Source of the DNA: Gammaproteobacteria bacterium
Lineage (GTDB): Bacteria; Pseudomonadota; Gammaproteobacteria; Steroidobacterales; Rariloculaceae
Assembly (NCBI GenBank): GCA_022826245.1
Contig: JAJDVG010000010.1
Location: 1 to 64,000 of the forward strand
Direction: 5' to 3'
DNA length: 64,000 bases
Position 1 is the stretch's first letter. Every line of letters begins with the position of its first letter. The notes under the pieces are model-generated. The model was not told where the DNA came from, searched no databases, and saw only the letters and a list, made by a program, of their open reading frames with translations. The translations under genes and the position numbers were made by a program. Below are positions 16,210 to 37,191 of this stretch, piece after piece.

Positions 16210-17727
16210 ATGAATACAGGGCCGCTAGCCGAACGCTCGCGCAGTGACTGGATCAAGACGGCCTGCTGGCTCGTCATCGGCGTATTCGTCCTGACGCGGA
16301 TTGCCGGAGTCCTGCAGGGCCAGCCGCTATTGAGCGCGTTCGATCTTTCGAACCTCGGGCTGCTCGGGACGCTCGCCGCCATCGCGCTGATCGTCCGGAT
16401 CTTCATGGCGCCGCGCCTCGTCAAGGCCGCGACGATGATCGAGCAGAACGAAATCAGGACGGTCGTGCTCTCGTTCTCCTTCGTGTTCATCCTGATGGCG
16501 GCCTACTACATCCTGAGACCGGTGCGCGACGCAATGGCGAGCGATTGGACCAACACCGAGATCAGCGTGCTGTGGAACATACAACTGGTTCTGAGCACGG
16601 CGGTCGTCGCGCTGTACGGCCTGGCCTGCTCGCACGTGCGCTTCCGGCTGCTCGTACCGGCCGTCTACATCTTCTTCGCGCTGACGTTCTGCGGCTTCTG
16701 GCTCGGCTCGGGCGCGGTCGCGGACCGCGTGCTGCTCGACAAGGGTTTCTATCTCTGGGTGAGCCTGTTCAGCCTGTTCCACGTCTCGGTCTTCTGGAGC
16801 TTCATGGCCGATACCTTCAGCAAGGAACAGTCGCGGCGCGTTTTCGCGTTCATCGCCGCGGGCGCGAGCGCCGGCGCGGCAGCGGGGCCGCTGGTCGCGA
16901 ACCAGATCGTGTCCGACATCGGCACCGACAACCTCATGCTGCTCGCTTCGGCGATGCTGCTGGTCGCGATCCCCGTGGCGCTCTATCTGCAGCGTTTGAA
17001 GCGCGTCGACCTGCACAACGAAGGTGTCGCCGCGGATCTCAGCGCCGCGAAAATCGGCGGCAATCCACTGGCGGGATTCAAGACCTTCTTCACGAACCCC
17101 TACCTGCTCGCGATCGGCGCGTTCATCCTGCTTTACACCACGATCGGTTCGTTCGTCTATTTCCAGCAGACGGATCTCCTGCGCGAATTCACGCGCGAAG
17201 AACGCACCGAAATCCTCGCAGGCCTCGCCTTCGTCGTGAACCTGCTGACCTTCGGGCTTGGTCTCTTTGCGACGAGCCGTATCGTCACGAGGTTCGGCAT
17301 GCCGACGACGCTCGCGCTCGTGCCCGTCTTCATCTGCGCCGGACTGCTGATTCTCGCATTCGCGCCAATTCTGACGGTCCTGCTGGCGCTCCAGGTGGCG
17401 CGCCAGGCTGGCAACTACGGTATCACCCGTCCCGCGCGTGAAATGCTGTTCACGAACGTCGACCGTGAAACGCGCTTCAAGGCGAAACCGGTGATCGACG
17501 TCGCCGTCTATCGCGGCGGTGACGCGGCCAGCAGCATCGCCTTCGCCGGCCTGACCGACGGCCTCGGCTTCGGCCTTGCGGCCATGGCCGCGATTGGCGC
17601 ATGCATTGCCGCAGTCTGGGGAGCGGCAGGCGTCTACCTCGGCCGGGTCTTCGGCAGGACAGCGGGGGTCGATGTTGCCGAGGATGACGCGAGCGCCGCC
17701 GTGCCGCATCGTCAGGCGGCTACCTGA
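16210..17727 (+). CDS. ADP/ATP-carrier-like (NTT/TLC-related) membrane transporter
   Basis: A 505-residue inner-membrane protein with about 12 helices. It resembles the nucleotide transporter (ATP:ADP antiporter, TLC-like) branch of the major facilitator fold: AAYYILRPVRDAMASDW, FYLWVSLFSLFHVSVFWSFMADTF, FAFIAAGASAGAAAGPLVA, RPAREMLFTNVDRETRFKAKPVID and VYRGGDAASS. Free-living bacteria carry distant homologues whose substrate is generally unknown, so ATP/ADP exchange should not be assumed. An AGGAG site lies six bases before the ATG. The stop codon falls within or just before the start region of trmB, which suggests co-transcription. Confidence 0.7.
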   Translation: MNTGPLAERSRSDWIKTACWLVIGVFVLTRIAGVLQGQPLLSAFDLSNLGLLGTLAAIALIVRIFMAPRLVKAATMIEQNEIRTVVLSFSFVFILMAAYYILRPVRDAMASDWTNTEISVLWNIQLVLSTAVVALYGLACSHVRFRLLVPAVYIFFALTFCGFWLGSGAVADRVLLDKGFYLWVSLFSLFHVSVFWSFMADTFSKEQSRRVFAFIAAGASAGAAAGPLVANQIVSDIGTDNLMLLASAMLLVAIPVALYLQRLKRVDLHNEGVAADLSAAKIGGNPLAGFKTFFTNPYLLAIGAFILLYTTIGSFVYFQQTDLLREFTREERTEILAGLAFVVNLLTFGLGLFATSRIVTRFGMPTTLALVPVFICAGLLILAFAPILTVLLALQVARQAGNYGITRPAREMLFTNVDRETRFKAKPVIDVAVYRGGDAASSIAFAGLTDGLGFGLAAMAAIGACIAAVWGAAGVYLGRVFGRTAGVDVAEDDASAAVPHRQAAT

Positions 17728-18448
17728 ACGCTTGGCGCCCGATCACCGTCGCAAGGTACGCAGCTTCGTACGGCGGCCCGGCCGCATCACGAAGGCGCAA
17801 CAACGCGCTCTGACTGCGCTGCTGCCGCGTTGGGGCATCCCGTACAACGAATCGAGGATCGATCTCGATGAAGCATTCGGCCGGCGCGCGGCGCGCGTGC
17901 TCGACATCGGTTTTGGCGACGGCGAGGCCTTGCTGACTACGGCGGCGAATTATCCCAGCATCGACTACCTCGGCGTCGAGGTCCACGAACCCGGAATCGG
18001 GCATCTGCTCGTGTTGCTCGAGAAAGCCGGCCTCGACAACGTCAGGATCATCGACCGCGACGTCGTCGATGTCCTCGACCACATGATCGAAGACGCTGCT
18101 TTCGACGCCGTGAACCTGTTCTTTCCCGACCCCTGGCCCAAGAAGCGCCATCACAAGCGTCGACTCGTCCAGCCCGGCTTCGCCGCGGCGGTCGCGAGGG
18201 TGCTCGTCGACGGAGGGCTCTTTCATATCGCGACCGACTGGGCCGACTACGCCGAACATACGCGTGAAGTGCTCGCGCGATGTCCCGACTTCGGCGCGGT
18301 TCCGGCCGGAGAACTCGGCGGCGACCCGCTCTCGTTCCGGCCGCCGTCGAAGTTCGAACGGCGCGGCCTGCGCCTCGACCACGTTATCGACGACCAGTAC
18401 TATAGGGCGCGGTCCGCCGCACCGTCGGCCAGCACCAGGAGCCCGTGA
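17684..18448 (+). CDS. trmB: tRNA (guanine-N7-)-methyltransferase TrmB
   Basis: A class I SAM methyltransferase that makes 7-methylguanosine at position 46 of tRNA. The family pattern is complete: RSFVRRPGRITKAQQRAL, ARVLDIGFGDGEALL (SAM site), YLGVEVHEPGIGHLL, VNLFFPDPWPKKRHHKRRLV (the PDPWPKxRHxKRR signature) and LFHIATDWADYAEH. The start is uncertain: ATG codons at 17672 and 17684 overlap the previous gene, and an in-frame TTG at 17732 would give about 238 residues, the usual length, just after the upstream stop. None has a good ribosome binding site. The stop overlaps the start of the next gene (GTGA). Confidence 0.92.
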   Translation: MTRAPPCRIVRRLPERLAPDHRRKVRSFVRRPGRITKAQQRALTALLPRWGIPYNESRIDLDEAFGRRAARVLDIGFGDGEALLTTAANYPSIDYLGVEVHEPGIGHLLVLLEKAGLDNVRIIDRDVVDVLDHMIEDAAFDAVNLFFPDPWPKKRHHKRRLVQPGFAAAVARVLVDGGLFHIATDWADYAEHTREVLARCPDFGAVPAGELGGDPLSFRPPSKFERRGLRLDHVIDDQYYRARSAAPSASTRSP

Positions 18449-19746
18449 GCACCTCCACCCGAACTGTCGTATCCGCCCGCCGGCCGTGGCAGGAAATCCT
18501 GTTCAACCGAAAGATGCTGATCTGCATCTTTCAGGGATTCTCGTCGGGCATGCCGCTCTACGTACTGGCTCAACTCGTGCCCGCATGGCTGCGGAGCGCG
18601 GAAATCGATCTGTCGACGATCGGGCTGTTTGCGCTGCTGACGCTCCCCTACAACTGGAAGTTCATCTGGGCGCCGATGCTCGATCGTTTTCGGCTGCCGT
18701 TTCTTGGTCGGCGTCGAGGCTGGATCCTGCTGAGCCAGATCCTGCTGCTGTTCAGCATCGGCCAATTCAGCGCTGTCGATCCCGCGACGAACATCCTGCC
18801 CGTGATGTGGGTCGTTCTCGCGACGGCGTTCTTCAGCGCGACTCAGGACATCGTGCTCGATGGCTATCGCCGTGAGTTGCTCTTTGACGATGAGCTCGGT
18901 ACCGGCAACTCGCTGTTCATCAACGCCTATCGCATATCGTCGCTCGTACCTGGCTCACTCGCGCTCGTTCTCGCCGACAGGATCGAATGGTCGATCGTGT
19001 TCTGGGTCGTCGCAGCGTTCATGGCCATCGGCATCGTCACGACACTGCTCGTGCCGGAGACCGCGCGCGACGACGCCGCGCCGTCGTCCGTACTGGCCGC
19101 CATCGTGAATCCATTCGTAGAGTTTTTCACACGCGACACCGTCAAGTCGGCGCTGCTGATCCTCATTTTCATGGTGCTCTACAAGCTCGGCGACAACATG
19201 GCCGTGGCGCTGCAGACGCCGTTCTTCCTCGACATGGGCTATACCCTCACCGAAATCGGCACCGTGCAGAAATTCGCGGCGCTCGGCGGCGTCATGGCAG
19301 GGGCCGCGGTCGGCGGGCTCATCATGCTGCGCGTATCCATCAACCGTTCGCTTTGGATGTTCGGTGTCGTGCAGATCGTGACGATCCTGGGCTATGCCGT
19401 GCTCGCGCGCATCGGCACGAACCTGTATGCGCTGTTCCTCGCCGTCGGCTTCGAGAATATCGGTGTGGGCCTGGGCACGGTGGCGCTCACGGCGTTCATC
19501 GCCAAGCAGACGAGCACGCGCTTTACCGTGACTCAATTCGCGCTGCTCACGAGCCTCGTCGCCCTGCCGCGCACGGTCGCGAGCGCGAGTACGGGCTTCA
19601 TCATCGAGGCGATCGGCTACTTCAACTTCTACCTGCTTTGCTTCGCCGTCGCGATCCCCGGAATGCTCATGCTGTTTCTCGTCGCCCCGTGGTCACAGGC
19701 CAGCGAGGCGTCCGGGACATCGGACGCAGGTCAGGCCAGATCGTAG
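18445..19746 (+). CDS. ampG: AmpG-like muropeptide MFS transporter
   Basis: A 433-residue inner-membrane protein with 12 predicted helices, starting at a GTG that overlaps the trmB stop. AmpG-type features: ILFNRKMLICIFQGFSSGMP, LPYNWKFIWAPMLDRFRLP, GRRRGWILLSQ, FFSATQDIVLDGYRRELL, GNSLFINAYRISSLVPGSLAL and a second half with NMAVALQTPFFLDMGYT. AmpG imports anhydromuropeptides released during wall turnover. The specific substrate is inferred from similarity. A regulatory link to beta-lactamase cannot be judged because no ampC or ampR is in the window. Confidence 0.82.
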   Translation: MSTSTRTVVSARRPWQEILFNRKMLICIFQGFSSGMPLYVLAQLVPAWLRSAEIDLSTIGLFALLTLPYNWKFIWAPMLDRFRLPFLGRRRGWILLSQILLLFSIGQFSAVDPATNILPVMWVVLATAFFSATQDIVLDGYRRELLFDDELGTGNSLFINAYRISSLVPGSLALVLADRIEWSIVFWVVAAFMAIGIVTTLLVPETARDDAAPSSVLAAIVNPFVEFFTRDTVKSALLILIFMVLYKLGDNMAVALQTPFFLDMGYTLTEIGTVQKFAALGGVMAGAAVGGLIMLRVSINRSLWMFGVVQIVTILGYAVLARIGTNLYALFLAVGFENIGVGLGTVALTAFIAKQTSTRFTVTQFALLTSLVALPRTVASASTGFIIEAIGYFNFYLLCFAVAIPGMLMLFLVAPWSQASEASGTSDAGQARS

Positions 19747-20501
19747 TCGATCGTCAGCGGCGCGTGGTCGGAGAAGAATTTGCGCTTGTAGATGCTGACC
19801 GCCTGCGCTGCGCTGCGAAGCCCGGGCGTTACCAGTTGATAGTCGATACGCCAGCCGACGTTCTTCTCGCGCGCCCGGCCGCGGTTCGACCACCAGGTGT
19901 ACTGGTCGGGTTCCGGGTTCACGGTCCTGAATGCATCGACGTAGCCGATGTCGTCGAAGATGTGGTCCATCCACGCGCGCTCTTCCGGCGTGAACCCCGA
20001 GTTCTTCTGATTTCCCCGCCAGTTCCTGATGTCGATCTTGCGGTGCGCAATGTTCACGTCCCCGCAGATGATGTACGGGATCGGTCGCGCGAGCAGCTCG
20101 ATCATGTGCGCTTCGAAACTCTCGAGGAAGCGAAACTTCGCTTCCTGCCGCGCGGGACTCGATGAGCCCGACGGAAAATAGGCGCTGATCACGCCAAAGG
20201 TATCGAACACTGCCTCGATGTAGCGCCCTTCGCCATCGAATTCGGCGTTGCCATAGCCCGTGATCACGTTGCGCGGTTCGGCACGGGAGTAGATTGCAAC
20301 ACCGCTGTAGCCCGGCCGCTCGGCGCAGAAGAGATAACGCTTGAAGCCCCGCGCGTGAAACGCGGCATCCTCGATCTGGTGCGGTTTGGCCTTGAGTTCC
20401 TGCAGGCACAGGATGTCGGCGCGCTGGCGGCGAAACCAGTTGAAGAAGCCCTTCCGCACCGCCGCGCGCAGGCCGTTGACGTTGACGGTGATGATTCTCA
20501 C
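19731..20501 (-). CDS. Exodeoxyribonuclease III family protein, Crc-like but catalytically intact
   Basis: A 256-residue member of the exonuclease III/EEP nuclease family, started here at a GTG (MRIITVNVNGLRAAV). The active-site residues are present: the glutamate in LCLQELKA, Asp-Asn in CGDVNIAH, and the Asp-His pair in SDHAPLTIDYD. The middle (DIRNWRGNQKNSGFTPEERAW, then GWRIDYQLVTPGL) is strikingly similar to Pseudomonas Crc, a catabolite-repression factor that evolved from this family and lost catalytic residues. Like Crc it lies beside pyrE. With its catalytic residues intact, it is more likely an abasic-site endonuclease/3' exonuclease in DNA repair. The 3' end overlaps the ampG-like gene by 16 bases on the opposite strand. 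Confidence 0.88.
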   Translation of the reverse strand: MRIITVNVNGLRAAVRKGFFNWFRRQRADILCLQELKAKPHQIEDAAFHARGFKRYLFCAERPGYSGVAIYSRAEPRNVITGYGNAEFDGEGRYIEAVFDTFGVISAYFPSGSSSPARQEAKFRFLESFEAHMIELLARPIPYIICGDVNIAHRKIDIRNWRGNQKNSGFTPEERAWMDHIFDDIGYVDAFRTVNPEPDQYTWWSNRGRAREKNVGWRIDYQLVTPGLRSAAQAVSIYKRKFFSDHAPLTIDYDLA

Positions 20502-20580
20502 GAAACTACAGGCAGCGGTATCCCCGGCGTGCCCGGGCACAAGCGCGGTATGATACCCGAGCCATTCCGACCCATCGCCG

Positions 20581-21234
20581 ATGAAAGCCTACAAGAAAGA
20601 ATTTCTCGAGCTTGCGCTCGAGCTTGACGTGCTTCGTTTCGGCCGCTTTGAACTGAAGTCCGGGCGGATAAGCCCATACTTCTTCAACTCCGGACTATTC
20701 AACACGGGTGCTGCAGGCGCCAGGGTCGGCCGCTGCTACGCCGCTGCGATCGCTGCACTGGATTTCGAGTTCGACATTCTGTTCGGCCCGGCCTACAAGG
20801 GCATCCCGCTGGTTGCGCTCGCTGCGGCCGCACTCGCCGAGCATCACGACCTGAACTATCCGTTCGCGTACAACCGCAAGGAACCGAAGGACCATGGCGA
20901 AGGCGGCCGCGGTGTCGGCGCACCGCTCGCCGGCCGCGTGCTGATCGTCGACGACGTCGTAACCGCCGGGACGGCGACACGCGAGGCGGTCGGCATCATT
21001 CGCGCGGCCGGTGCGACGCCCGCCGGAATCCTGGTCGCTATCGACCGCGAAGAAGTCGGCACGAATCCCCGCCTGACGACAGTCCGGCAGATCGAGACCG
21101 AACTCGGCATTCCAGTCAGGAGCATCGTCTCGTTCACCGATCTCGTCGAGCACATGGAAGGCAACAGCGCGTTTGCCGAGCGCGTCCCGGCCATGCGCGC
21201 CTATCGGGAGCGCTACGGCGCGATGTCCGCGTAA
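20581..21234 (+). CDS. pyrE: Orotate phosphoribosyltransferase
   Basis: A 217-residue enzyme that converts orotate and PRPP to orotidine monophosphate in pyrimidine synthesis. Conserved parts are LKSGRISPYFFNSGLFNTG, LFGPAYKGIPLV, FAYNRKEPKDHGEGG (catalytic flexible loop with the lysine and histidine), and the PRPP motif VLIVDDVVTAGTATREA. The length matches the gammaproteobacterial form. It is divergent from the exonuclease III-like gene, as crc and pyrE are neighbours in Pseudomonas. No slmA lies between pyrE and dut, unlike in Escherichia coli. Confidence 0.96.
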   Translation: MKAYKKEFLELALELDVLRFGRFELKSGRISPYFFNSGLFNTGAAGARVGRCYAAAIAALDFEFDILFGPAYKGIPLVALAAAALAEHHDLNYPFAYNRKEPKDHGEGGRGVGAPLAGRVLIVDDVVTAGTATREAVGIIRAAGATPAGILVAIDREEVGTNPRLTTVRQIETELGIPVRSIVSFTDLVEHMEGNSAFAERVPAMRAYRERYGAMSA

Positions 21235-21335
21235 GCGTCAGCCGCATATCCGGGCCGGAGCGTGAGTCCAGCGGCGAGAGTTCGGCGGCTACGCACCCTG
21301 CGCCTCCCGGCACTGCCGGGGAAACGCAAACCCGG

Positions 21336-21896
21336 CTAACGCGTACCGGAGTGACCGAAGCCGCCCGCGCCGCGATCGGATTCGGTGAAGTCCTCGACGA
21401 CCTCGAATTCGAAGGCGGCCACGGGCACGACGACGAGCTGCGCGAGCCGCGCTCCGGGCTCGATCCGAAACGGAGCGGTTCCCCGGTTCCAGCACGATAC
21501 GAGCAGTTCGCCCTGGTAGTCGGAATCGATGAGGCCGACGAGATTGCCGAGCACGATGCCGTGCTTGTGGCCGAGCCCGGAGCGCGGCAGGATCACCGCC
21601 GCAAGGCCGGGATCGGCGATGTGGATCGCGATGCCGGTCGGCACGAGCAGCGTGGCGCCGGGCTCGAGCGTGGCGGGCTCCGCAAGGCAGGCTCTGAGGT
21701 CGACGCCGGCCGAGCCGTCAGTTGCGCGCGCTGGCAGCGGGATCTCCCGTCCCACGCGCTCGTCGAGAATTCTAAGCTTGATTTGAACGCCGGCCGCGGC
21801 CGCACGGCGATCTTCAGCGACAACCGCGGCAAGGCGCCCATCCACGGCGGGAGCATCGCCTGGCGCGTCGTTTTCGCGTACTGAATCGGTAGTCAT
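21336..21896 (-). CDS. dut: Deoxyuridine 5'-triphosphate nucleotidohydrolase (dUTPase)
   Basis: Hydrolyses dUTP to dUMP, keeping uracil out of DNA and feeding thymidylate synthesis. All five motifs of trimeric dUTPases are present in order: [52 protein letters not shown] and the flexible C-terminal [11 protein letters not shown]. The protein is 186 residues; the catalytic core starts near residue 37 ([13 protein letters not shown]), so there is an extra low-complexity Ala/Asp-rich N-terminal stretch. No start codon with a good ribosome binding site fits the core start, so the extension may be real. In many relatives coaBC immediately precedes dut; here an exported fusion protein gene separates them. 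Confidence 0.95.
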
Positions 21897-22052
21897 CGAG
21901 ATCTCGTCGATGGATTGTCCGGGGGTCGGTCGTATGTCACCGGGTTCGAATCTTGGCCGTTGTGGCGACGCGGCGAAAATGTCCGCGTCCGCCTGAGTGT
22001 TTCGCTGGACTGCCGCAGTTTGCGTCGGCTCCGACAGGCGCCGGATCCATAC

Positions 22053-23600
22053 TCAGTTCGCTGCGGAAATCACTCCACAGGCGACTCTGGGACCTCCGCC
22101 GCCGAGCGCCCGGGGGAAATCGGAATAATTGTCGCCGCCGCCGTGAATCACGAGCGCGCGGCCTTGCAGGTCGCTTGCCTGCAGCCGGGGCGCGACGACG
22201 GGCACGGTCGCCGTACCGTCCGCGGCGACCGCAAGCACGGGCAGGTCGCCCAGGTGCCCGTTGCCGTAGGGCCCTTCGTGCCGACCCGTGCTATCCGGAT
22301 CGTAGTGGCCGCCGGCGTTCAGGCCGCCGTTGCCGCAGTCGGGATTCGCATGCACATGAAAACCGTGCGGGCCCGGCGTGAGCCCGCTCAGCGACGGGGA
22401 GAGCCGCAGACCGATGTCGCTATCCTCGACGAGCACGGTCCCCAGGAAAGGCGCGCCCGGACCGGTGCCGTATATCGACACCGCCATGCCCCCGTCCTCG
22501 GACGGGTAGTAGCCGGCGGCGAGCAGCACGGGCATGCCGTAAGTGACCACGCGCTTGACGAAGGCGATCTTGTTCTCGGTTCGACCGGTCACCGGATTTC
22601 GCGCCTCGTAGGCCAGAAACGTCTCGCCAAACGCTTCGCTGACCCGGAGGATATCGTAGCCCCCGAATTGCCCGTCCCGGTCGAGTTCCGGGGTCGAGGC
22701 GCCGAACCAGCGGTTCCAGGGGTCGCCGTTGAACAGCACGTTGCCGTAGGTATCCACGCCGAACAGGTAGATCGAGCCGCTGCGCCAGCGCGGTTCGGCG
22801 ATCATCGCCTGGGCGGCGAAATAGCCCAGCGGTTCCAGTTCCAGCGCGGCGCAACGCACGAACTCCGCCAGCCGCCCGTTGCCGCCCTCGGCATCGAGAA
22901 TCGCAGCGTTGACTTCGTCGGCCTCGCAGGTGGCGGGCAAATCGCGGCTGTAGAGCCCCGCGGCGATCACGGCATCGATGCCGTTCCACTGGATCCGCTT
23001 GACGTATGAGGCCTTCGGCGCGTCGTCGCCCGTGGCGGGATTCGTGAATGAGTAGTAGACCCAGCCTTCGTCGAACCGGGTGGCGATTCGATGGAACTCG
23101 CGAAACACATCGTTGCCCCACGCGTCGATCACCTGCCCGAACGGCCCTGCTTCGCGCGCCGGGTCGGGCGGAAAGACAAACACACGCGCCTGATCGCTCA
23201 TGGTGGTGACTTCGGCGACGAAGACGTACATCGGCCCGCTTTTCCAGCGCTCATCGTCGTGGAACGCCTGGCGCGCAGCTTCGAAACCGACCTCGAGAAC
23301 ATGCTCGTACGCGCACTGCACGAACGAACGGACATCGGCGCGCGTGCTGACGGCGCCGGCCATGACCGGGCGGTCCGCGCAGGACGGGTGCTCGGCGACC
23401 GCGGGCTGGATTGGCGCGGCGACCAGGAGGATCGACGCGATCGGCAACAGGAGACGGAGCACCGGCGCGCCGCCGAGCAGCTTCGCAAGACCGGCAGACA
23501 CGACCGGGGACGCGCCGGGATTCGCAAGCAGGGCGCGACCGTAAGGATCAACCCTGCTTCGGAATGCGATGAAGCCACTCCGCCCGCATGCGATACCCAT
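22053..23600 (-). CDS. Exported tandem Cache domain / Cu-Zn superoxide dismutase fusion protein
   Basis: A 515-residue protein started at an ATG with a strong AGGAAGG site. After a long polar N-region, a hydrophobic stretch (LRLLLPIASILLVAAPIQPAVA, about 48-69) looks like a signal peptide or anchor. Two Cache-like sensor repeats follow (about 80-210 and 215-360); each has a strand ending in FTNPATGDD or ARNPVTGRTEN, then ASYVKRI/IAFVKRV and a final AAGLY/AAGYY. From about 372 to the end is a Cu/Zn superoxide dismutase with all ligands visible: HVH (415, 417), GGHYDP (432), RHEGPYGNGHLGD (441, 449, Asp452) and VIHGGGDN (486), plus the disulphide cysteines (about 422 and 508). It should act in the periplasm. 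I know of no standard protein with this domain order. Confidence 0.85.
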   Translation of the reverse strand: MGIACGRSGFIAFRSRVDPYGRALLANPGASPVVSAGLAKLLGGAPVLRLLLPIASILLVAAPIQPAVAEHPSCADRPVMAGAVSTRADVRSFVQCAYEHVLEVGFEAARQAFHDDERWKSGPMYVFVAEVTTMSDQARVFVFPPDPAREAGPFGQVIDAWGNDVFREFHRIATRFDEGWVYYSFTNPATGDDAPKASYVKRIQWNGIDAVIAAGLYSRDLPATCEADEVNAAILDAEGGNGRLAEFVRCAALELEPLGYFAAQAMIAEPRWRSGSIYLFGVDTYGNVLFNGDPWNRWFGASTPELDRDGQFGGYDILRVSEAFGETFLAYEARNPVTGRTENKIAFVKRVVTYGMPVLLAAGYYPSEDGGMAVSIYGTGPGAPFLGTVLVEDSDIGLRLSPSLSGLTPGPHGFHVHANPDCGNGGLNAGGHYDPDSTGRHEGPYGNGHLGDLPVLAVAADGTATVPVVAPRLQASDLQGRALVIHGGGDNYSDFPRALGGGGPRVACGVISAAN

Positions 23601-23703
23601 CACGCCTTCCTCATGCCCGCATGAGCAATCATGCTAGCGGTCGCGACGACTGCGAACAATACGCGGCGAACGCGTCCGGAAGGCTCCGGGAAAGTGCCAT
23701 GCG

Positions 23704-24960
23704 CTATCCCGCCAGCAGCGATGTGCGCGGAGTCTCGCGCGCAGCGTGGTAGCGCTCCGCGACGAGTTCGACGAGTTGCCGTGCAAGCACCGACTTCGCC
23801 CGCTCGCCGAACTCGGCTTCGCCGCCGGGCCAGAACACCTTGAGCGCGTTCGTCTCGGCATCGAAGCCGCAATCGGGTCCGACACGGTTGGCGGCGATCA
23901 TGTCGAGCCCCTTGTTCGCGAGCTTGTCGCGCGCGTGCCGATCGAGATCCTCGGTCTCGGCGGCGAAGCCGACGCAGAACGGCCGATGAGCGAGGGCGGC
24001 AACGCTCGACAGCGTGTCTTTCGAACGCACGAGATCGACCTTGATTTCCTCGTCGCTGCGCTTGATCTTGCGCGCCGACGCACGATGGGGACGATAGTCC
24101 GATACCGCCGCACAGGCGATGAACAGCTCCGTGTCGTGGATCTCGCGATGCACGGCGCCATACATCTGCTCGGCCGTCTCGACGTCCACGCGGCGCACGC
24201 CCCCGGGCACTCGCAACGACACCGGACCGCTGACCAGCACGACGTCGGCGCCCGCGTCTCTTGCCGCCTCGGCGATGGCGTAGCCCATCTTGCCGGAGCT
24301 GCGGTTCGTGATGTAGCGCACGGGATCGATCGGTTCGCGCGTCGGGCCGGCGGTGATGACGGCCTTGACGCCCTTGAGGCGCTGCGGTTCGAGGCGGCCG
24401 GCGACGACGCGCCCTTCCAGCAATTCCCGGGCGATCTCGACCGGTTCCATCATCCGGCCCATGCCGTGTTCGCCGCAGGCCTGATCGCCTTCGACGGGCC
24501 CGAGCAGCCGGACGCCGCGGCCCTCGAGCACGGCCCGGTTCGCCTGCACCGCGGCGTGCTCCCACATGACGCGATTCATCGCCGGAACGAGGACGACGGG
24601 CGCGGTCGTCGCGAGGCACAGCGTCGACAGGAGATCGCCTGCAAGACCGCCGGCGAACGATCCCATGAAATGCGCCGTCGCCGGCGCGACGACGACCAGG
24701 TCGGCCCAGCGGGCAAGCTCGATGTGCCCCATCGCGGCTTCCGCCCCGGCGTCCCAGAGGTCGTCGCGCACACGCCGCGACGAGACCGCCTGCAGCGTCG
24801 TCGCCGTGACGAACTGACCGGCGCCGCGCGTCATCACGACCTGGACCTCGGCGCCGCGTTCGACGAGGCGCCGAACGAGCTCGGGGCTCTTGTAAGCGCC
24901 GATCCCCCCGGTGACGCCGAGCAGGATGCGTGGCGAAGAACTGCCGGATTCTCGTGACAT
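23704..24960 (-). CDS. coaBC: Bifunctional phosphopantothenoylcysteine decarboxylase/phosphopantothenate-cysteine ligase
   Basis: A 418-residue two-domain enzyme of coenzyme A synthesis. The N-terminal FMN-dependent decarboxylase (CoaC) has ILLGVTGGIGAYKSPELVRRL, the histidine segment AAMGHIELARWAD and VLVPAMNRVMWEH (PAMN loop), then GDQACGEHGMGRM. The C-terminal ligase (CoaB) starts near AVITAGPTREPIDPVRYITN, with SSGKMGYAIAE, AAVSDYRP and the lysine region KIKR. The frame continues upstream, but the ATG used gives normal length. It faces radC divergently, as in other gammaproteobacteria the order dut-coaBC-radC is conserved. Confidence 0.95.
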   Translation of the reverse strand: MSRESGSSSPRILLGVTGGIGAYKSPELVRRLVERGAEVQVVMTRGAGQFVTATTLQAVSSRRVRDDLWDAGAEAAMGHIELARWADLVVVAPATAHFMGSFAGGLAGDLLSTLCLATTAPVVLVPAMNRVMWEHAAVQANRAVLEGRGVRLLGPVEGDQACGEHGMGRMMEPVEIARELLEGRVVAGRLEPQRLKGVKAVITAGPTREPIDPVRYITNRSSGKMGYAIAEAARDAGADVVLVSGPVSLRVPGGVRRVDVETAEQMYGAVHREIHDTELFIACAAVSDYRPHRASARKIKRSDEEIKVDLVRSKDTLSSVAALAHRPFCVGFAAETEDLDRHARDKLANKGLDMIAANRVGPDCGFDAETNALKVFWPGGEAEFGERAKSVLARQLVELVAERYHAARETPRTSLLAG

Positions 24961-25298
24961 GCGGTCGGCCGTGCGTTCCAATGCCGTGAGCTTACCCCCG
25001 GTCGCACCTGTTTTTCCACCGGAGCGGCGGCCCGCATCGGTCCGTGGCGAAAGCCCCGATGCGTTGGGCGAAACTCCTGACCGAATACGGCCGATCGCCC
25101 GGCGCGACGCGGAGTTCCGCCACGGGCTGCCAGCCGCGACGCCGCCGTCAACGCTCCACTCGATCCGACAACGCCGGATCACACGGCTACCGCGCCGTTC
25201 TGCGCACCGCTGGCGTTTCTCCACGACTTGCCGACAAATTCGGGCTGCGTTGCCGACGCCCATTCGCCATGCTGCGCTCAAACCGTGGAAACCAACAC
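24961..25298. other. Divergent intergenic region between coaBC and radC
   Basis: About 340 bases separating the start codons of coaBC (minus) and radC (plus). It must contain both promoters, but I see no convincing -35/-10 pair on either strand. The radC frame stays open through most of it without stop codons; the translated residues look non-conserved. Confidence 0.5.
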
Positions 25299-30494: not shown

Positions 30495-30709
30495 GCGCGT
30501 ATGGGGTGGAACTGCCGGAGCTTCGTGGGCTTGCCTAAGTGGATTTGATCGCTACTGGTGCATGGTGGCGTTGGGAGGCTGGATAGCGCGGATTTCGGCG
30601 TCCGTAAAACACCTCGGGCGATACCGGGGAACGAGCGATGTCGGGTCAGGCCGAGCACGCCGAGCGAGTCTTTGACGGTTTTTCAATCGCTTCCTCGGTC
30701 AGGGTCCCG

Positions 30710-32485
30710 CTAATCCCCGAGCGCCACACCCTCCCGGCGCGGGTCCGCGCCGCCCGACAGGACCCGCCCGTCGTCCGTGTACTCGATCGCGATGCCGTGC
30801 AGTCCGCTGTTCAGCGTTCTCGACACGACGCTGTGGCCGAGTGCCCGGAGCTGCCCGGCATGGTCGAGAATCGCGGTGTCCTGCTCGAGTTCGATGGAGC
30901 GGTCCTGCGCCAGGAAGTGCGGCGCCGCAACGGCGTCCTGGATATTGAGCTCCCAATCGAGCACGCCAACGATGGCCTGCGCGACGTAGTTGATGATCCG
31001 CGTCCCGCCGGGCGAGCCGACGAGCAGCCGTAGCCGATCGTCCGCGTCGAAGACGAGAGTCGGCGACATGCTGCTGAGCGGCCGCTTGCCGGGCTCGGGC
31101 CGGTTCGCGACGGGCAACCCGTCGACCTCGGGCACGAAGGAGAAGTCGGTGAGCTGATTGTTCAGGATGAAGCCGCCGACCATGAGCTGGCTGCCGAAAG
31201 CGCCCTGCACTGTCGTCGTCATCGAGACGGCATCGCCCCAACGGTCGACGATCGAGAAGTGGCTCGTCGACATGACGTCGGTCGGCGCGCCGGGCGCGAA
31301 GTTCCACGCCAGATCGGGCCGGGGTGCGCCGGGCGACACCTGCCGCAGCGCTCTCCCGGGATCGATCAGCGCCGCGCGGCTCTGCAGGTACTCGCGGTTC
31401 ATCAGTGCGGCAACGGGCACGTCGACGAAATCCGGATCCGCCAGGTACAGATTGCGGTCGGCGAACGCGAGCCGGCTCGCCTCGGCGACCAGGTGAATCG
31501 ACGTCACGGGGTCCGCGCCCGGGGCCGGGAGGTCGAACGCTTCGAGCATCCCGAGAATCTGCTGAACGGCGATACCGCCGGAGGACGGCAGGCGCGGCCC
31601 GCACACCCGCCATTGTCGGTACGGCGAGCACAGCGGTGCGGTCGCCTGGGTCTCGTAGCCTGCGAGATCCTCGCGTGTCATACGGCCCGGTCGAATCGTA
31701 TCGTTCGTGACCGCTGCGACGATCCGGTCGGCGAGTTCGCCCGTATACATCGCATCGGCGCCCTGCGCGGCCAGCGTGCGCAGCGTCTCGGCATACTCGG
31801 TGTTGACGAGGCGGTATCCGGTTTCGCGGGGCTCGCCGTCCTCGTCGTAGAAATACGCCCGGAACTGCTCGTCCCTGGCGACCCGCCGGAACCGGTCGAG
31901 CAGGAAATACAGCCGTGGCGAGACCTCGAAGCCGCGCTCGGCCAGCTCGATCGCAGGTTCGAAGAGCTCGGGCCACGGCAACCTGCCGTGCTCCCGATGC
32001 GCGCGCTCGAGCATGCGCATGGCGCCCGGCACTCCCACGGCCTGACCCCCGAACGCCGCGTCCAGGAATGACAATTCTCGGCCGTTGGCGTCGAGGAACA
32101 TGCCGGGTGTCGCCGCCGCCGGCGCCGTCTCGCGGCCCGCGTAGGCGACGATCCGGGCGGGCTCCCCGGCTGGGGCGGAGGACCCCCTCGCCGAAACCGG
32201 CCGATCGCCGGGCACGTCGTACACGAGCATGAACGCGCCGCCGCCGATACCCGACGACTGCGGTTCCACGAGCGACAGCACGAGCTGCACGGCGATGGCT
32301 GCATCGACGGCACTGCCCCCGGCGCGCAGGATCGCGATCCCGGCTTCGGATGCGTGGGGATTCGCTGCCACGACCATCTGTTCGGTCGCGCGTACGGGTT
32401 CGGCTGCGCCTGCCGCGGCGAGCCAGACACAGGTGGCCGCGAATGAACAGACGAGGAGCTTCGCCCGGTGAATCGAAACTGTCAT
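30710..32485 (-). CDS. ggt: Gamma-glutamyltransferase
   Basis: A 591-residue periplasmic N-terminal nucleophile hydrolase. The signal peptide is LLVCSFAATCVWLAAAGAAE. Family features: MVVAANPHASEAGIAILRAGGSAVDAAIA, QSSGIGGGAF, then the autoprocessing site around TSHFSIVDRWGDAVSMT, where the Thr becomes the catalytic nucleophile, and RPLSSMSPTL. It cleaves gamma-glutamyl bonds of glutathione and related compounds. The start uses an ATG after AGGGAAAG; the frame is open upstream. The gene is inserted between mutM and coaD, which are adjacent in Escherichia coli. Confidence 0.94.
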   Translation of the reverse strand: MTVSIHRAKLLVCSFAATCVWLAAAGAAEPVRATEQMVVAANPHASEAGIAILRAGGSAVDAAIAVQLVLSLVEPQSSGIGGGAFMLVYDVPGDRPVSARGSSAPAGEPARIVAYAGRETAPAAATPGMFLDANGRELSFLDAAFGGQAVGVPGAMRMLERAHREHGRLPWPELFEPAIELAERGFEVSPRLYFLLDRFRRVARDEQFRAYFYDEDGEPRETGYRLVNTEYAETLRTLAAQGADAMYTGELADRIVAAVTNDTIRPGRMTREDLAGYETQATAPLCSPYRQWRVCGPRLPSSGGIAVQQILGMLEAFDLPAPGADPVTSIHLVAEASRLAFADRNLYLADPDFVDVPVAALMNREYLQSRAALIDPGRALRQVSPGAPRPDLAWNFAPGAPTDVMSTSHFSIVDRWGDAVSMTTTVQGAFGSQLMVGGFILNNQLTDFSFVPEVDGLPVANRPEPGKRPLSSMSPTLVFDADDRLRLLVGSPGGTRIINYVAQAIVGVLDWELNIQDAVAAPHFLAQDRSIELEQDTAILDHAGQLRALGHSVVSRTLNSGLHGIAIEYTDDGRVLSGGADPRREGVALGD

Positions 32486-32510
32486 TGCTTTCCCTTGCTG
32501 TATGGCAGAT

Positions 32511-33023
<513 letters not shown>

Positions 33024-33108
33024 CTACCTTACGGCGCGCCGCATGCGCCCGGCAGACGCCCGGGGAACCGCGTCGTGCCTGAACAAGGTCGGGTTTCCTC
33101 AGGAGTTG

Positions 33109-33675
33109 TCATGTGCCGGTGTTCGGGAGCCGCTGGGCAGAACCAGCGAGCCGGGCAAGACCGAAGCAGACGGCGCCGGCGCGGCCGGTTTTTTGCCAGC
33201 ACAGCGCCGCCGATTCGGGCAGCCCCTCGCTCGCGGCCCGTTCGAGGTACAGCAGCGCCTCGGGCGCCATGACCGATACGAGAGCGCCGATCTCGGCATC
33301 GACGCGAGTCGCGTAGGGCGGATCGACGAACACGACATCGAAAGGCGTTTCGACCGCTCGGCGCAGAAACGTATCGACATCCTCGCACAAGACGCGGCCG
33401 TTCCCTCCCAGTAGCCGGAGCTGCTCGCCGAGATGCCGGGCGAGCTTTCGGTCGCGCTCGACGAACCACACCTCATCTGCCCCGCGCGAAAGCGCCTCGA
33501 GTCCGAGCATCCCCGTGCCGGCGTAGAGGTCGAGGCAGCGCGTCCCTTCGATCCGCTCGCCGAGCCAGTTGAACAGCGTCTCCCGAACGCGATCGGCGGT
33601 CGGACGAACGGTCGTTCCGGCGGGGAAACGCAGTCGCCTGCCGCGCCAAGCGCCGGCGATGACGCGCAGGCGCAT
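33109..33675 (-). CDS. rsmD: 16S rRNA (guanine(966)-N2)-methyltransferase RsmD
   Basis: A 188-residue class I SAM methyltransferase modifying G966 of 16S rRNA. Features: MRLRVIAGAWRGRRLRFP, TVRPTADRVRETLFNWL, CLDLYAGTGMLGLEALSRGA (SAM site) and FDVVFVDPPY (catalytic NPPY-like motif as DPPY). The ATG overlaps the stop of the upstream unknown gene by one base (TGATG), so translation may be coupled to the polyglycine operon. In most gammaproteobacteria rsmD lies next to ftsY; here about 3.5 kb of accessory genes separates them. Confidence 0.94.
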   Translation of the reverse strand: MRLRVIAGAWRGRRLRFPAGTTVRPTADRVRETLFNWLGERIEGTRCLDLYAGTGMLGLEALSRGADEVWFVERDRKLARHLGEQLRLLGGNGRVLCEDVDTFLRRAVETPFDVVFVDPPYATRVDAEIGALVSVMAPEALLYLERAASEGLPESAALCWQKTGRAGAVCFGLARLAGSAQRLPNTGT

Positions 33676-34133
33676 CAATCCGTATACGCGACGATCGCCG
33701 GATGCATTGCGATCACACACTCCGCGATCAAATCGCCTATCAGCATGGCGTCATCGGTATCGCCCGGCGGCAGACCCGCAATGTCCGAATGCGATGGGTC
33801 GGCATCGTAATCTCCGGTTGCCTGAAGCGGGTCGTGGATGATTCGCAACGAGTCCAACTCCTCGGCAACCTGGCGAACGACCGTGCCGACGTTCATTTCC
33901 GCAAAGCGCCCGCTTGCCCGTAAACGAAGGCGGGACAAACGTCGAACCTCGCTCAACTGATGGTTCTTGCCGGGCTCGAAGGCATCGAGCCAATTGACGG
34001 ACAGTCCGGTCTCGTCCGGTCTGCCGGAGCGCAAACGAAAGTCCGAACCGTCAGCCGTTCCATCATCCCGAACCATGCTCGGCTTGACATAGCGGACAAT
34101 CTGGTCGCCTTCCGGCAGATCGTCGCCCTTCAT
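33675..34133 (-). CDS. Conserved protein of unknown function (152 aa), third gene of the polyglycine operon
   Basis: I do not recognise a named family, although the sequence looks like a conserved bacterial unknown. No signal peptide or membrane helix. The first half has VRYVKPSMVRDDGTADGSDF, then FRLRSGRPDETGLSVNWLDA; the second has RFAEMNVGTVVRQVAEELDS and ADPSHSDIAGLPPGD, then DDAMLIGDLIAECVIA. The regular mix of strands and helices suggests a single compact cytoplasmic domain. Its ATG overlaps the stop of the preceding gene by four bases (ATGA), and its stop overlaps the rsmD start. This tight packing implies that it works with its two upstream neighbours. No catalytic residues can be proposed with confidence. 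Confidence 0.75.
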   Translation of the reverse strand: MKGDDLPEGDQIVRYVKPSMVRDDGTADGSDFRLRSGRPDETGLSVNWLDAFEPGKNHQLSEVRRLSRLRLRASGRFAEMNVGTVVRQVAEELDSLRIIHDPLQATGDYDADPSHSDIAGLPPGDTDDAMLIGDLIAECVIAMHPAIVAYTD

Positions 34134-34837
34134 ACATAAACCAATGAATGTAGTTCGAACGCGCCGATCTGCTGCTCTATCCCTTCCAGGGTATCCCGCC
34201 CGGTTACCCTCGAAATTCGTGGCCCTTGCTCGCGCTGCTTGAAAATGACGTATTGCACCATTCTGCCGCCAAGAAACTGCAGGCCCAGATGCGTTCCGCG
34301 TTCATCCTTCCATATTGCTCTCAGATTGCCGTTATCCATGAGCACCAGGTTGCCGCGCCGCATATTTGGAGCGGACTCGATGAACTGCCTGAAATCGATT
34401 TCGGAGGCAAAATTCAGCGTGTAGCCATCGTGGCGCGCTTCTTCCTGCAGCAGCTTCATGCGCTCCAGATAGGAATCGTGTTTGGCGCGCCCATGCCGCG
34501 CCATGTCTTCCGAATCAGATGCCGGAGCCGCGGCGGAACGTCGAAGACTCGTCGTACCTATTACTGAGCTAGCTGAACCACGCAACGCGATTGCCTGGGA
34601 ATTGAGTTTCTCCAGGGAACGGGTTGTAGCTTCGCGTGTGTCATCATCCCGACTGGAAAAATTGAATCCGCCATGACGACGCGGATTCCAAACCATTTTC
34701 GGCGGATGACAGCCTTCGTCAATCTGAAGGGATCCATCCCCTCGAACGTCAGGTTCTTTCAAATCCACCGTCTCCATCGCCGCCGACAGACCGTCCAGCC
34801 CGCCAGCTTTTCCGGCTTCTGCATGCTCCAACAGCAC
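34130..34837 (-). CDS. Conserved protein of unknown function (235 aa), second gene of the polyglycine operon
   Basis: The GTG start overlaps the preceding TAG stop by one base (TAGTG) and has GGCGGAGA upstream. The N-terminal 100 residues are polar, low in conservation features and probably disordered. The C-terminal 130 residues look like a real domain: RAKHDSYLERMKLLQEEARH helix, LNFASEIDFRQFIES, then MRRGNLVLMDNGNLRAIW, THLGLQFLGGRMVQYVIFKQ and RDTLEGIEQQIGAFELHSLV. The beta-rich middle (GNLVLMDNGNLRAIWKDE) suggests a small mixed alpha/beta fold. I recall similar sequences only as unknown bacterial proteins. There is no signal peptide. It is probably co-translated with the polyglycine protein and the 152-residue protein. 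Confidence 0.72.
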   Translation of the reverse strand: MLLEHAEAGKAGGLDGLSAAMETVDLKEPDVRGDGSLQIDEGCHPPKMVWNPRRHGGFNFSSRDDDTREATTRSLEKLNSQAIALRGSASSVIGTTSLRRSAAAPASDSEDMARHGRAKHDSYLERMKLLQEEARHDGYTLNFASEIDFRQFIESAPNMRRGNLVLMDNGNLRAIWKDERGTHLGLQFLGGRMVQYVIFKQREQGPRISRVTGRDTLEGIEQQIGAFELHSLVYV

Positions 34838-35430
34838 TATTGCTCTCCGCCGACGGAAATCAACGGCACGAACAGCACGAAACCATGGGCGCCTGCAACA
34901 CCGGCATCGCCTGCCTCAAAGCCCTTGCCACCGTCTCCGCCACGGCCACTCCTGCCAATTCTGACCTCGAATTCGTCATCGATGGACAAATCTGCAATCT
35001 CGACAATCCGCGTTTCTCCGGGGAAGCCCTTGCCGCCTTGGCCACCGTCCGCCGTGAGGCGGCCATCGGCCGAAGGCGCCACTGCCCCGCGCCCGCCGTT
35101 GCCGCCGTCGCCGTAGTGGCATCCTTGCCCCGGTGACCCAGAGACAGGCTTCCCCTCGTGAAGACCACCACCGCCGCCGCCGCCGCCACCGCCGCCGCCC
35201 GCAGCTTGATAGGTTATGTCTCCATGTTTCACGCTGGTTGGCGCGCCGCCACCGCCGCCACCGCCGCCGCCCGCACCGTATACATTCAACTCCTCGAGAC
35301 AGAACGCGCCGCCGCCGCCGCCACCGCCGCCTGCCGCGCCGCGAATGATCAGCAAACCGCGTTGTTCGGACCACGGCCATGCGAAGACCCCGGATTCAAC
35401 GACGCGGCGCAATGCCTTGTTGTCCTGCAT
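34837..35430 (-). CDS. Polyglycine-rich protein (197 aa), first gene of a three-gene operon
   Basis: The ATG follows a strong GGAGGAAG site. After a short head (MQDNKALRRVVESGVFAWPW) and a strand LLIIRGAA, the protein has three pure glycine runs: 8 at residues 34-41, 9 at 54-62 and 12 at 78-89, each preceded by a short beta-like strand. The second half has looser glycine repeats (GDGGNGGRGA, DGGQGGKGFPGE, GRGGDGGKGFEAGDAG) and ends in a hydrophobic strand, HGFVLFVPLI. No signal peptide is visible. Polyglycine runs between strands recall polyglycine-II sandwich folds such as phage gp38 adhesins, but I cannot assign a family. It heads a set of overlapping genes that runs into rsmD. Confidence 0.75.
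   Translation of the reverse strand: MQDNKALRRVVESGVFAWPWSEQRGLLIIRGAAGGGGGGGGAFCLEELNVYGAGGGGGGGGGAPTSVKHGDITYQAAGGGGGGGGGGGGLHEGKPVSGSPGQGCHYGDGGNGGRGAVAPSADGRLTADGGQGGKGFPGETRIVEIADLSIDDEFEVRIGRSGRGGDGGKGFEAGDAGVAGAHGFVLFVPLISVGGEQ
35164..35331. repeat. Three imperfect GCC/ACC trinucleotide tracts encoding polyglycine
   Basis: On the plus strand, tracts at 35164-35199, 35245-35271 and 35308-35331 consist of CCG/CCA-type triplets. They encode the 12, 9 and 8 residue glycine runs on the minus strand. Such tracts can change length by slippage in steps of one codon. Confidence 0.9.
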
Positions 35431-35739
35431 CCGATACTTCCTCCGTTGCGCAATGCGAGTCGCGATCGAATGATTCGCAAAAATGCCGGGACGTCGCCGA
35501 CAAGCGTGGCACAGGGCATGCCTGCCTGTCGATCCGGAAACCGGGACGTTCTCGGCAATTTTGAGACATCAATGCGACCTTTCCAGTAGTTCGAATGCGC
35601 GCGCCGCCCGATTCCGAGGCCGCCGTGCAAACAGTTGCTGCCGGTAATTCTTGTGGACGCGACCAAATGTATCGCTCGGAATTGACATACGATGTTCTCG
35701 CGCGTCGTATGGAACCACGTTACCCGCGAGGAGGCTGCC
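35431..35739. promoter_or_regulatory. Divergent intergenic region with a TTGACA -35 box
   Basis: About 310 bases between the polyglycine gene (minus) and the 483-residue exported protein (plus). On the plus strand a perfect TTGACA (35682-35687) is followed 17 bases later by a weak TCGTAT (35705-35710); transcription would start about 10 bases before the ribosome binding site of the plus-strand gene. I see no clear promoter for the polyglycine operon. Confidence 0.45.
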
Positions 35740-37191
35740 ATGTTGAATGATAGAAGTCCGGCCGCCCTTGGCAAGAGCCCCACCGCGCCAAGCTGGTGGC
35801 CAAATTCGTCCGGTGATCCGGCGAATTGCCGGCGCAACGCGAACTCGCACCGGCGCCCGGCATTGGTCGCGAGCCTGGCTACCGCGGCATATCTCGCGGC
35901 AATGCCGACGAGCTTGTCCCAGACAAGCGTCGGCCGAGGCGCTCCGGATCCGCTTCGCGCGGACGACATCGTCGGTTCCGAAGGCAAGGGCTACCTCATC
36001 GGTCCCGGCGTTCCCGACGACAACATGCCGATCTACGCTGCGCGCGACGGCGCGACTCCGCCCGGCATCGAGCCGCTGCCGGTCGATATCTTCACGACCG
36101 ACGACTTCTACCTCGACGAGGCGCTCTGGTTCGATCCGCGCTATTACCGCTGCAACTCCGCGGTCGGTCTCGAACAGATCTGGGGCGCCTACGAAGTTCC
36201 CCTGATCGGTGACGACCCGCCCGCATCCGCGGCCTGGGGCTTCTGCGACCGCGACTACCCGCGCGAGGAGATCGTGAGCCCCTACGCGTTCACTACGGCG
36301 GGTGAGCACTACCGGGCGCTGCTCGACGAAGCGCGCGACCGTGGCGGCCCGACACGGTACACGCAGGCGACGCTGCCCGACTGGAATGGCCGGTACGCGC
36401 GCCAGCGCGAAAAGACCCAAAGCTGGATCTACGGCGCCGTGCTCCAGATACCGACATACCTGTCGCTGCTGACGCCCGAGTACCAGCGGCGCTTCGTTCA
36501 GCAGATGTATCACTATTCGGGCAACAACGCAGCGCAGTGGCCGGGCTCGTATTGCTGGCCCGAAGGCTACATGCGCCGAATCTCGCAATACGGCGGCGGC
36601 CGGTCGAACCTCGTGATGACGCCGGACCTTGTTCTCGACATTCGCAACGCCGCGAAAACCCTGGTCACGCAGATTCACATCGGCCGTGAATTCGACGAAT
36701 CCGGCGTCGTACCCAGGCTCGGCGCCGACGTGCCGCAGTGGCTCGGCGATACGATCGGGTTCTGGGACGGCGAAGCGCTGATCACCTGGACATCGAACAT
36801 CCAGGGCTGGATCTCGCACGGGCAACACGAGTTCAGCAACCGAATGCAGACGATCGAGGTCTACACGCCGCGCGAGAATTCGGACGCGGAGTTCATCGGC
36901 CTTCGGCACGAAATCATGATCTACGATGAGGAGGCGTTCCTCGAGCCCGTTCGCATCGTCCAGTACCTGGACAGGCAGACCGGCCTCAACGAAGGCGATC
37001 CGTTCCTGTATATGGAGTGCGTCCCGCAGATCTTCCCGGTCGAAGGCGTCGCGACGCCGATCGCGCCGGGCCAGACCTTCGAGTACACGCTTCCGGACAC
37101 GTTCGGCCGCCCCTGGGCGCAGATCTGGGAACGGTACCACGAGGAAGGCATGCAGCGCCCGGAAGAAGAGGACATATTCAGTTTCGAATGA
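35740..37191 (+). CDS. Large exported protein of unknown function (483 aa)
   Basis: I do not recognise a named family. The ATG follows CGAGGAGG at a five-base spacing. The N-terminus is basic, then [22 protein letters not shown], a probable signal peptide after a long n-region. The mature protein is rich in aromatic residues and Asp/Glu: [62 protein letters not shown] (a repeated beta motif common in exported unknowns), and a tail ending EEEDIFSFE. The DTIGFWDG...LITWT segment is reminiscent of large secreted unknowns found near TonB receptors and steroid- or terpene-degradation genes in environmental proteobacteria. It sits alone between the polyglycine operon and ftsY. Confidence 0.72.

Follow-up and report, generated by a model that had tools for sequence, protein, structure and literature searches.

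Cache domains are known as the input parts of receptors, and a 2016 survey, in the portion of its text available to us, lists a signalling output for every Cache family but SMP_2 (PMC4822843). The sCache_2 domain PscD (5G4Y) binds carboxylates through Tyr90, His103, Tyr143 and Lys156, as given in the accessible excerpt of the structural report (PMC5062169). On the enzyme side, multi-domain Cu/Zn superoxide dismutases are known, and DrSOD is a well-studied one. Its two-part architecture is confined to one genus in InterPro, and its physiological role is described as unresolved; the available text of the same paper counts 276 InterPro architectures with this SOD domain and does not contain the word "Cache" (PMC12362111). 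Here we analyze a gene which joins two Cache repeats to a Cu/Zn superoxide dismutase (SodC), located in a stretch of 64,000 nucleotides (the window) from a gammaproteobacterial genome. The initial annotation knew of no established protein of this domain order, and indeed none was found beyond two species of one genus in the genomes searched, nor was such a protein described in the titles and abstract openings covered by our literature searches on Cache with superoxide dismutase, secreted Cache proteins and solute-binding fusions. The Cache-Cache-SodC architecture may be listed in InterPro. What is new here is the combination of known domains, the Cache half coming from a non-signalling family that appears to be undescribed.

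As outlined in Table 1, the fusion protein is encoded by a single intact open reading frame, in which a hydrophobic export-like segment is followed by the two Cache repeats and the SodC domain. The ATG, which lies one codon inside the GTG start and is preceded by AGGAAGG, appears from the sequence to be the likelier start. The signal-like segment noticed in the initial annotation was recovered by eye as a hydrophobic stretch with a possible cleavage site at AVA/EH behind it. Only a short join links repeat 2 to the SOD barrel, the fusion being in frame, and the observed di-Cache plus SodC architecture is far above chance. A scan for promoters and terminators at the gene revealed nothing above shuffled sequences.

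Table 1 Coordinates of the fusion gene, its domains and its neighbours in the window.
Feature	Coordinates	Strand	Residues	Basis and remarks
Whole fusion gene	22053..23603	-	516 aa from GTG; 515 aa from ATG 23600	ORF call
Hydrophobic export-like segment	23394..23462	-	48-70	read by eye from the sequence
Cache repeat 1	22929..23384	-	~74-225	Pfam, fold comparison; C75/C97; PscD ligand positions Y126, F144, Y184, K197
Cache repeat 2	22491..22928	-	~226-371	Pfam, repeat alignment, fold comparison; C226/C251; equivalent positions Y279, F291, Y332, K345
Cu/Zn superoxide dismutase domain	22056..22490	-	~372-516 (Pfam 388-512)	Pfam, alignment, fold; short S-S subloop
coaBC (dfp), upstream neighbour	23704..24939	-		gene search, locus reading
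dut, downstream neighbour	21336..21896	-		ORF list, locus reading

The two Cache repeats were recognized by Pfam above the family cut-offs, with two stretches each for dCache_2 (PF08269, 44.6 bits against a cut-off of 26.5) and sCache_2 (PF17200, 39.4 bits against 25). The repeats are 33% identical to each other over 126 residues (E 3e-13), and the Cache part matches 4K08 at the profile level with an E value of 4.4e-9. Because the SOD part filled the structural match list of the full-length model, the di-Cache was modelled and structure-searched alone; the AlphaFold models were fair, with a mean pLDDT of 63 and 60, the latter being that of the di-Cache. In the predicted model repeat 1 superimposes on 4K08 with a Z score of 11.2 (3.3 Å, 123 aligned residues), the best value of the di-Cache against solved Cache domains, and repeat 2 fits best to 5IS1 with a Z score of 9.7 (3.8 Å, 120 aligned). 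Foldseek itself ranked intracellular PAS domains first for the Cache part, and these superimposed poorly. Structure prediction, which had been proposed as the means of overturning the Cache assignment, returned a Cache/PAS-like fold for both repeats.

The residues equivalent to the PscD ligand contacts were located in repeat 1 by profile alignment, the Tyr90 position by eye, and mapped onto repeat 2 by analogy with repeat 1. Each repeat keeps three of the four carboxylate-contact residues, and the His103 position differs, being taken by F144 and F291, respectively. Among 138 family modules the Tyr, Tyr and Lys positions are kept in 126 to 134; at the His103 position 128 of them carry F or Y in repeat 1, and 130 carry F, M or L in repeat 2. 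Judged by these residues, the pockets look both kept and altered. As three of the four PscD carboxylate-binding residues are present in both repeats, a small carboxylate-like ligand is the leading guess; since PscD His103 is replaced by an aromatic residue in repeat 1 and a hydrophobic one in repeat 2, the ligand may be no carboxylate. The kept residues raise the likelihood of the ligand binding suggested in the initial annotation, and the quinone found no support. An invariant pair of cysteines opens each repeat; all four are present without exception where aligned in the 138 modules, and pairing of C75 with C97 and of C226 with C251 is predicted. The NPATG/NPVTG pattern, which the initial annotation noted in the repeats, turned out to be part of a family-wide NPxTG consensus.

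Cache receptors for signal transduction combine a membrane helix with a signalling output domain. The fusion protein has neither: a Pfam search found no output or signalling family, and no second hydrophobic segment was seen in its sequence C-terminal to the export-like one, which bears out the earlier remark that an output is lacking. The Cache pair therefore cannot signal by the known route, and in our reading it is no signal-sending sensor.

For the SodC half, Pfam identified Sod_Cu (PF00080) with an E value of 4.7e-32 (111.6 bits against a cut-off of 28.9). We take H416, H418 and H487 to be the Cu ligands, H433 the bridging histidine, H442, H450 and D453 the Zn ligands, C423/C509 the disulphide and R506 the active-site arginine (516-aa numbering). 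All of these residues are kept in the alignment to solved SODs, and the beta-barrel of the model superimposes on 1YAI with a Z score of 17.3 (2.4 Å, 127 aligned), so that the description as a complete Cu/Zn SOD with all metal ligands and the disulphide pair is corroborated by Pfam, alignment and fold. The score against the NCBIfam equivalog of E. coli SodC (NF007628) was 143.7 bits, the cut-off being 165. Leaving out the own gene, the best 20 SodC matches from the class were 51-69% identical to the window SOD. In a tree of 52 rows it groups with EcSodC-type gammaproteobacterial sequences with a support of 94/92, which is below the star threshold, and has no resolved place inside this group. 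Three SODs of Bryobacterales genomes and 16 SODs of other types in the order branch separately from it. The short S-S subloop was considered as a special trait of the window SOD and rejected, as it is common among gammaproteobacterial SodCs. No further PF00080 gene was found in the window's genome.

A second species of the genus (G001) carries the same fusion protein, changed at 6 of 516 residues (99% identical). Its copy lies on an independent contig of 456 kb, that of the window measuring 226 kb, and in both species the same coaBC gene adjoins the fusion. The initial annotation had named absence from related genomes as a sign of an assembly error; finding the gene again on a separate contig of a second species led us to reject such an error. 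The two genes are 98.8% identical in nucleotides, with 13 synonymous versus 6 nonsynonymous differences. Over the compared stretches the two carrier genomes are 73-99% identical per 500-base piece, and the fusion gene sits in a tract of 96-99% identity; it may therefore have passed recently between the two species. When positions 16500-25000 and 30500-36000 of the window were compared with the G001 stretches L262-L264, most pieces differed by ~10-20%, and several tracts, one of them with the fusion gene, were 95-99% identical, a pattern of mosaic exchange between species.

For the neighbouring genes, coaBC was searched in 39 genomes, found in 35 and read at 30 loci. At 27 of these dut follows coaBC directly, two are the fusion carriers and one is cut by a contig end. 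The third species of the genus (G002, 92% complete) yielded no fusion match and has dut directly after coaBC, that is, an empty site. With respect to this adjacency, the fusion gene seems to have been inserted locally, in a single lineage, between coaBC and dut. Its GC is like that of the neighbours, its GC3 does not stand out either, and the search for insertion-sequence traces or flanking repeats at the gene returned only short, chance-like repeats. Carriage by phage or plasmid was rejected, no di-Cache match being present in phage records, plasmid records or viral contigs; five SodC matches in viral contigs came from the SOD query, not from the di-Cache.

A scan of a species-genome collection (84,980 species) with the Cache pair returned two loci, the G001 copy and L052 in a Bryobacterales MAG (44% identity), whose protein ends directly after the Cache pair. 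The genome of L052 holds 12 di-Cache matches. In a set of 120 relatives that contains this genome too, 16 give matches at E ≤ 0.001, 14 of them strongly (best E < 1e-100, 6-19 matches per genome) and two weakly, and an even draw of 396 genomes of the Bryobacterales' phylum gave six matches at 1e-15, one weak and one the query genome. Around the window, the matches were limited to the two known carriers in 396 genomes of the order and to the own genome plus one weak partial match in 180 genomes of the phylum. In the class, 20 of 369 genomes match the Cache pair at E 0.001, namely the own genome and 19 weaker ones, mostly with a single Cache domain.

From the fetched stretches 97 distinct module-bearing ORFs were taken. 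Their partners are SodC in two (the window and its near copy), SBP_bac_5-type domains in 11, SBP_bac_3-type domains in three, an N-terminal jelly-roll-like part in seven (named by eye, with no Pfam match in L064) and an N-terminal region of 400 aa in 16; none was recognized in 58, which are single or tandem. Pfam analysis of eight representatives identified SBP_bac_5 (E ~5e-54) in two and SBP_bac_3 in two, one of the latter below the cut-off. Alignment of 21 modules unveiled 42 invariant columns, and the window module has all traits of the Bryobacterales-type family, i.e. two repeats, four cysteines and the conserved pocket residues. In the tree it falls into a clade of 15 rows (97/95) together with its near copy L051 and 13 modules from Bryobacterales-related genomes, the closest of which are 57-60% identical to it; these 13 carry SBP5, SBP3, the jelly-roll part or no partner. 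From these sequences we infer that the di-Cache is a partner-swapping, putatively secreted module. The first reading thus holds in part: it missed the large family and the mobile di-Cache with other C-terminal partners, whose existence makes the SOD one of several partners and not a dedicated output.

Other Cache-SodC fusions were sought and rejected. In the class, the longest other open frame among the 76 of 369 genomes with a SodC match measures 343 aa, and of the 14 Bryobacterales-related genomes six contain PF00080, none of it fused to a di-Cache; the 670-aa frame L100 has no di-Cache match. Clustering of the neighbours of 75 loci revealed no conserved operon partner, no cluster exceeding 12 loci.

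Several observations were made along the way. In Bryobacterales-related genomes the di-Cache stands in front of whole solute-binding domains (SBP5 in L106, L107, L112, L116, L153, L154, L169, L181, L187, L188 and L102; SBP3 in L109, L158 and L190), which makes proteins of ~650-1,250 aa having ligand-binding parts of two kinds, and no transporter genes were recognized beside the six such loci read by eye. At L152, L156, L166, L170, L182 and L185 a single di-Cache gene lies in divergent orientation to a ~400-aa receiver-domain gene, behind which come a small kinase gene of anti-sigma-like type and, in three cases, a STAS-like gene (by eye); a regulatory link at these six loci is possible. Gammaproteobacterial Cache-like repeats with no evident output occur in L025 and L027 (two repeats) and in G114:C1:1458116-1459717 (about four, in a 595-aa frame), and non-signalling Cache arrays may be more widely spread. 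Furthermore, one genome (G476) contains two arrays (L109:4772-10882 and L108:3798-8814), in each of which five related di-Cache genes follow one another head to tail, a sign of recent amplification.

Judged by the kinship of its parts, the fusion gene is a chimera of a partner-swapping di-Cache module and a gammaproteobacterial enzyme of the E. coli SodC type. The different nearest kin of the two halves fit a transfer of the di-Cache, which probably reached the window lineage in this way, followed by fusion to a gammaproteobacterial SodC; the fusion may also have been made elsewhere. An immediate donor was not found in the genomes searched (best identity ~60%), and the transfer into the genus could have proceeded via unsampled lineages.

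For the role of the protein we lean slightly towards an exported, non-signalling chimera, in which the Cache pair is the binding, docking or tethering part of the SodC. The protein would leave the cytoplasm through its signal peptide, judged by eye as it is, and a cysteine staple would hold each Cache repeat in the oxidising periplasm. Each repeat would then bind a small molecule resembling a carboxylate, or else a surface-borne ligand, and the SodC would dismutate superoxide constitutively in the periplasm, with the di-Cache deciding where the enzyme sits or what it travels with. The same docking role is presumed for the di-Cache with a solute-binding partner. Going by the sequence features, export and SOD activity are highly probable and ligand-competent Cache pockets are reasonably so; for docking or tethering as the purpose of the di-Cache the chances are about even. 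A general role of the di-Cache as a secreted docking module, which would display interchangeable cargoes (solute-binding domains, SOD) on a common ligand or surface, is a rather doubtful extension.

Since the known signalling route is closed to the Cache pair, binding or docking of the exported enzyme is favoured over both a passive passenger and ligand gating. A di-Cache that is a neutral passenger or stabiliser, in a gene kept for its periplasmic SOD function alone, would agree with the fusion being the only PF00080 gene found in the genome. Such a passenger should be considered unlikely, albeit not negligible, given that the fused copy retains its pocket and cysteine residues and that the protein is nearly unchanged (6/516) across two species, although the surrounding tract is itself unusually similar. 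Gating of the SOD, whereby a Cache ligand such as an organic acid alters its activity or oligomeric state, could draw on the conserved ligand-type residues in both pockets and on the short in-frame join between repeat 2 and the enzyme. We regard it as distinctly improbable, as the same module is also found by itself or joined to solute-binding domains, for which gating is not needed, and the active site of the SOD is complete and of canonical type; moreover, Cu/Zn SOD works close to the diffusion limit, and allostery is not known for it. An artefact of assembly or binning might be suspected because the second carrier is a metagenome bin, the window's genome comes in 62 contigs and the third species lacks the gene. 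It is hardly conceivable, however, with the same fusion beside the same coaBC on independent 226- and 456-kb contigs of species that are 73-99% identical per 500-base piece, the domain join lying within a continuous ORF and the GC resembling that of the neighbours.

If the di-Cache is indeed such a general docking module, a sensor fold serves here as an address and not for signalling, and the window shows a system that moves between phyla and gains a new enzymatic cargo. Genomes of one bacterial group carry the di-Cache in many copies, with changing C-terminal partners, among them solute-binding domains; in the window's genus that partner is an enzyme. With the fusion it can be tested directly whether Cache domains are able to serve as binding or addressing modules.

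In comparison with the described Cache domains, the window repeats resemble the sCache_2 domains PscD (5G4Y) and Adeh_3718 (4K08) in fold (Z 10.9-11.2) and share the PscD ligand residues Tyr90, Tyr143 and Lys156. Whereas these domains sit in chemoreceptors, the window protein has a Cache pair with no signalling part, two repeats with cysteine pairs and a replaced His103. The Bryobacterales-related proteins L052, L106, L117 and L158 contain the same module (44-60% identity) with the same four invariant cysteines and pocket residues, but there the partner is none, another di-Cache, SBP_bac_5 or SBP_bac_3 instead of SodC. With the E. coli/Salmonella-type SodC (1ESO, 1EQW, 6D52) the window SOD shares ~46-58% identity, all ligands, the disulphide and the barrel fold (Z up to 17.3); it is ~8 residues shorter in the S-S subloop and, unlike these enzymes, bears an N-terminal di-Cache. 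DrSOD (DRA0202) of Deinococcus radiodurans, a Cu/Zn-SOD joined to a beta-propeller lactonase, is a two-part protein like that of the window; according to the available text, its SOD is N-terminal and its partner a calcium lactonase, whereas here the SOD is C-terminal and the partner a Cache pair (PMC12362111). Beside DrSOD, the window protein is a second case of a SodC with a fused domain of unknown purpose.
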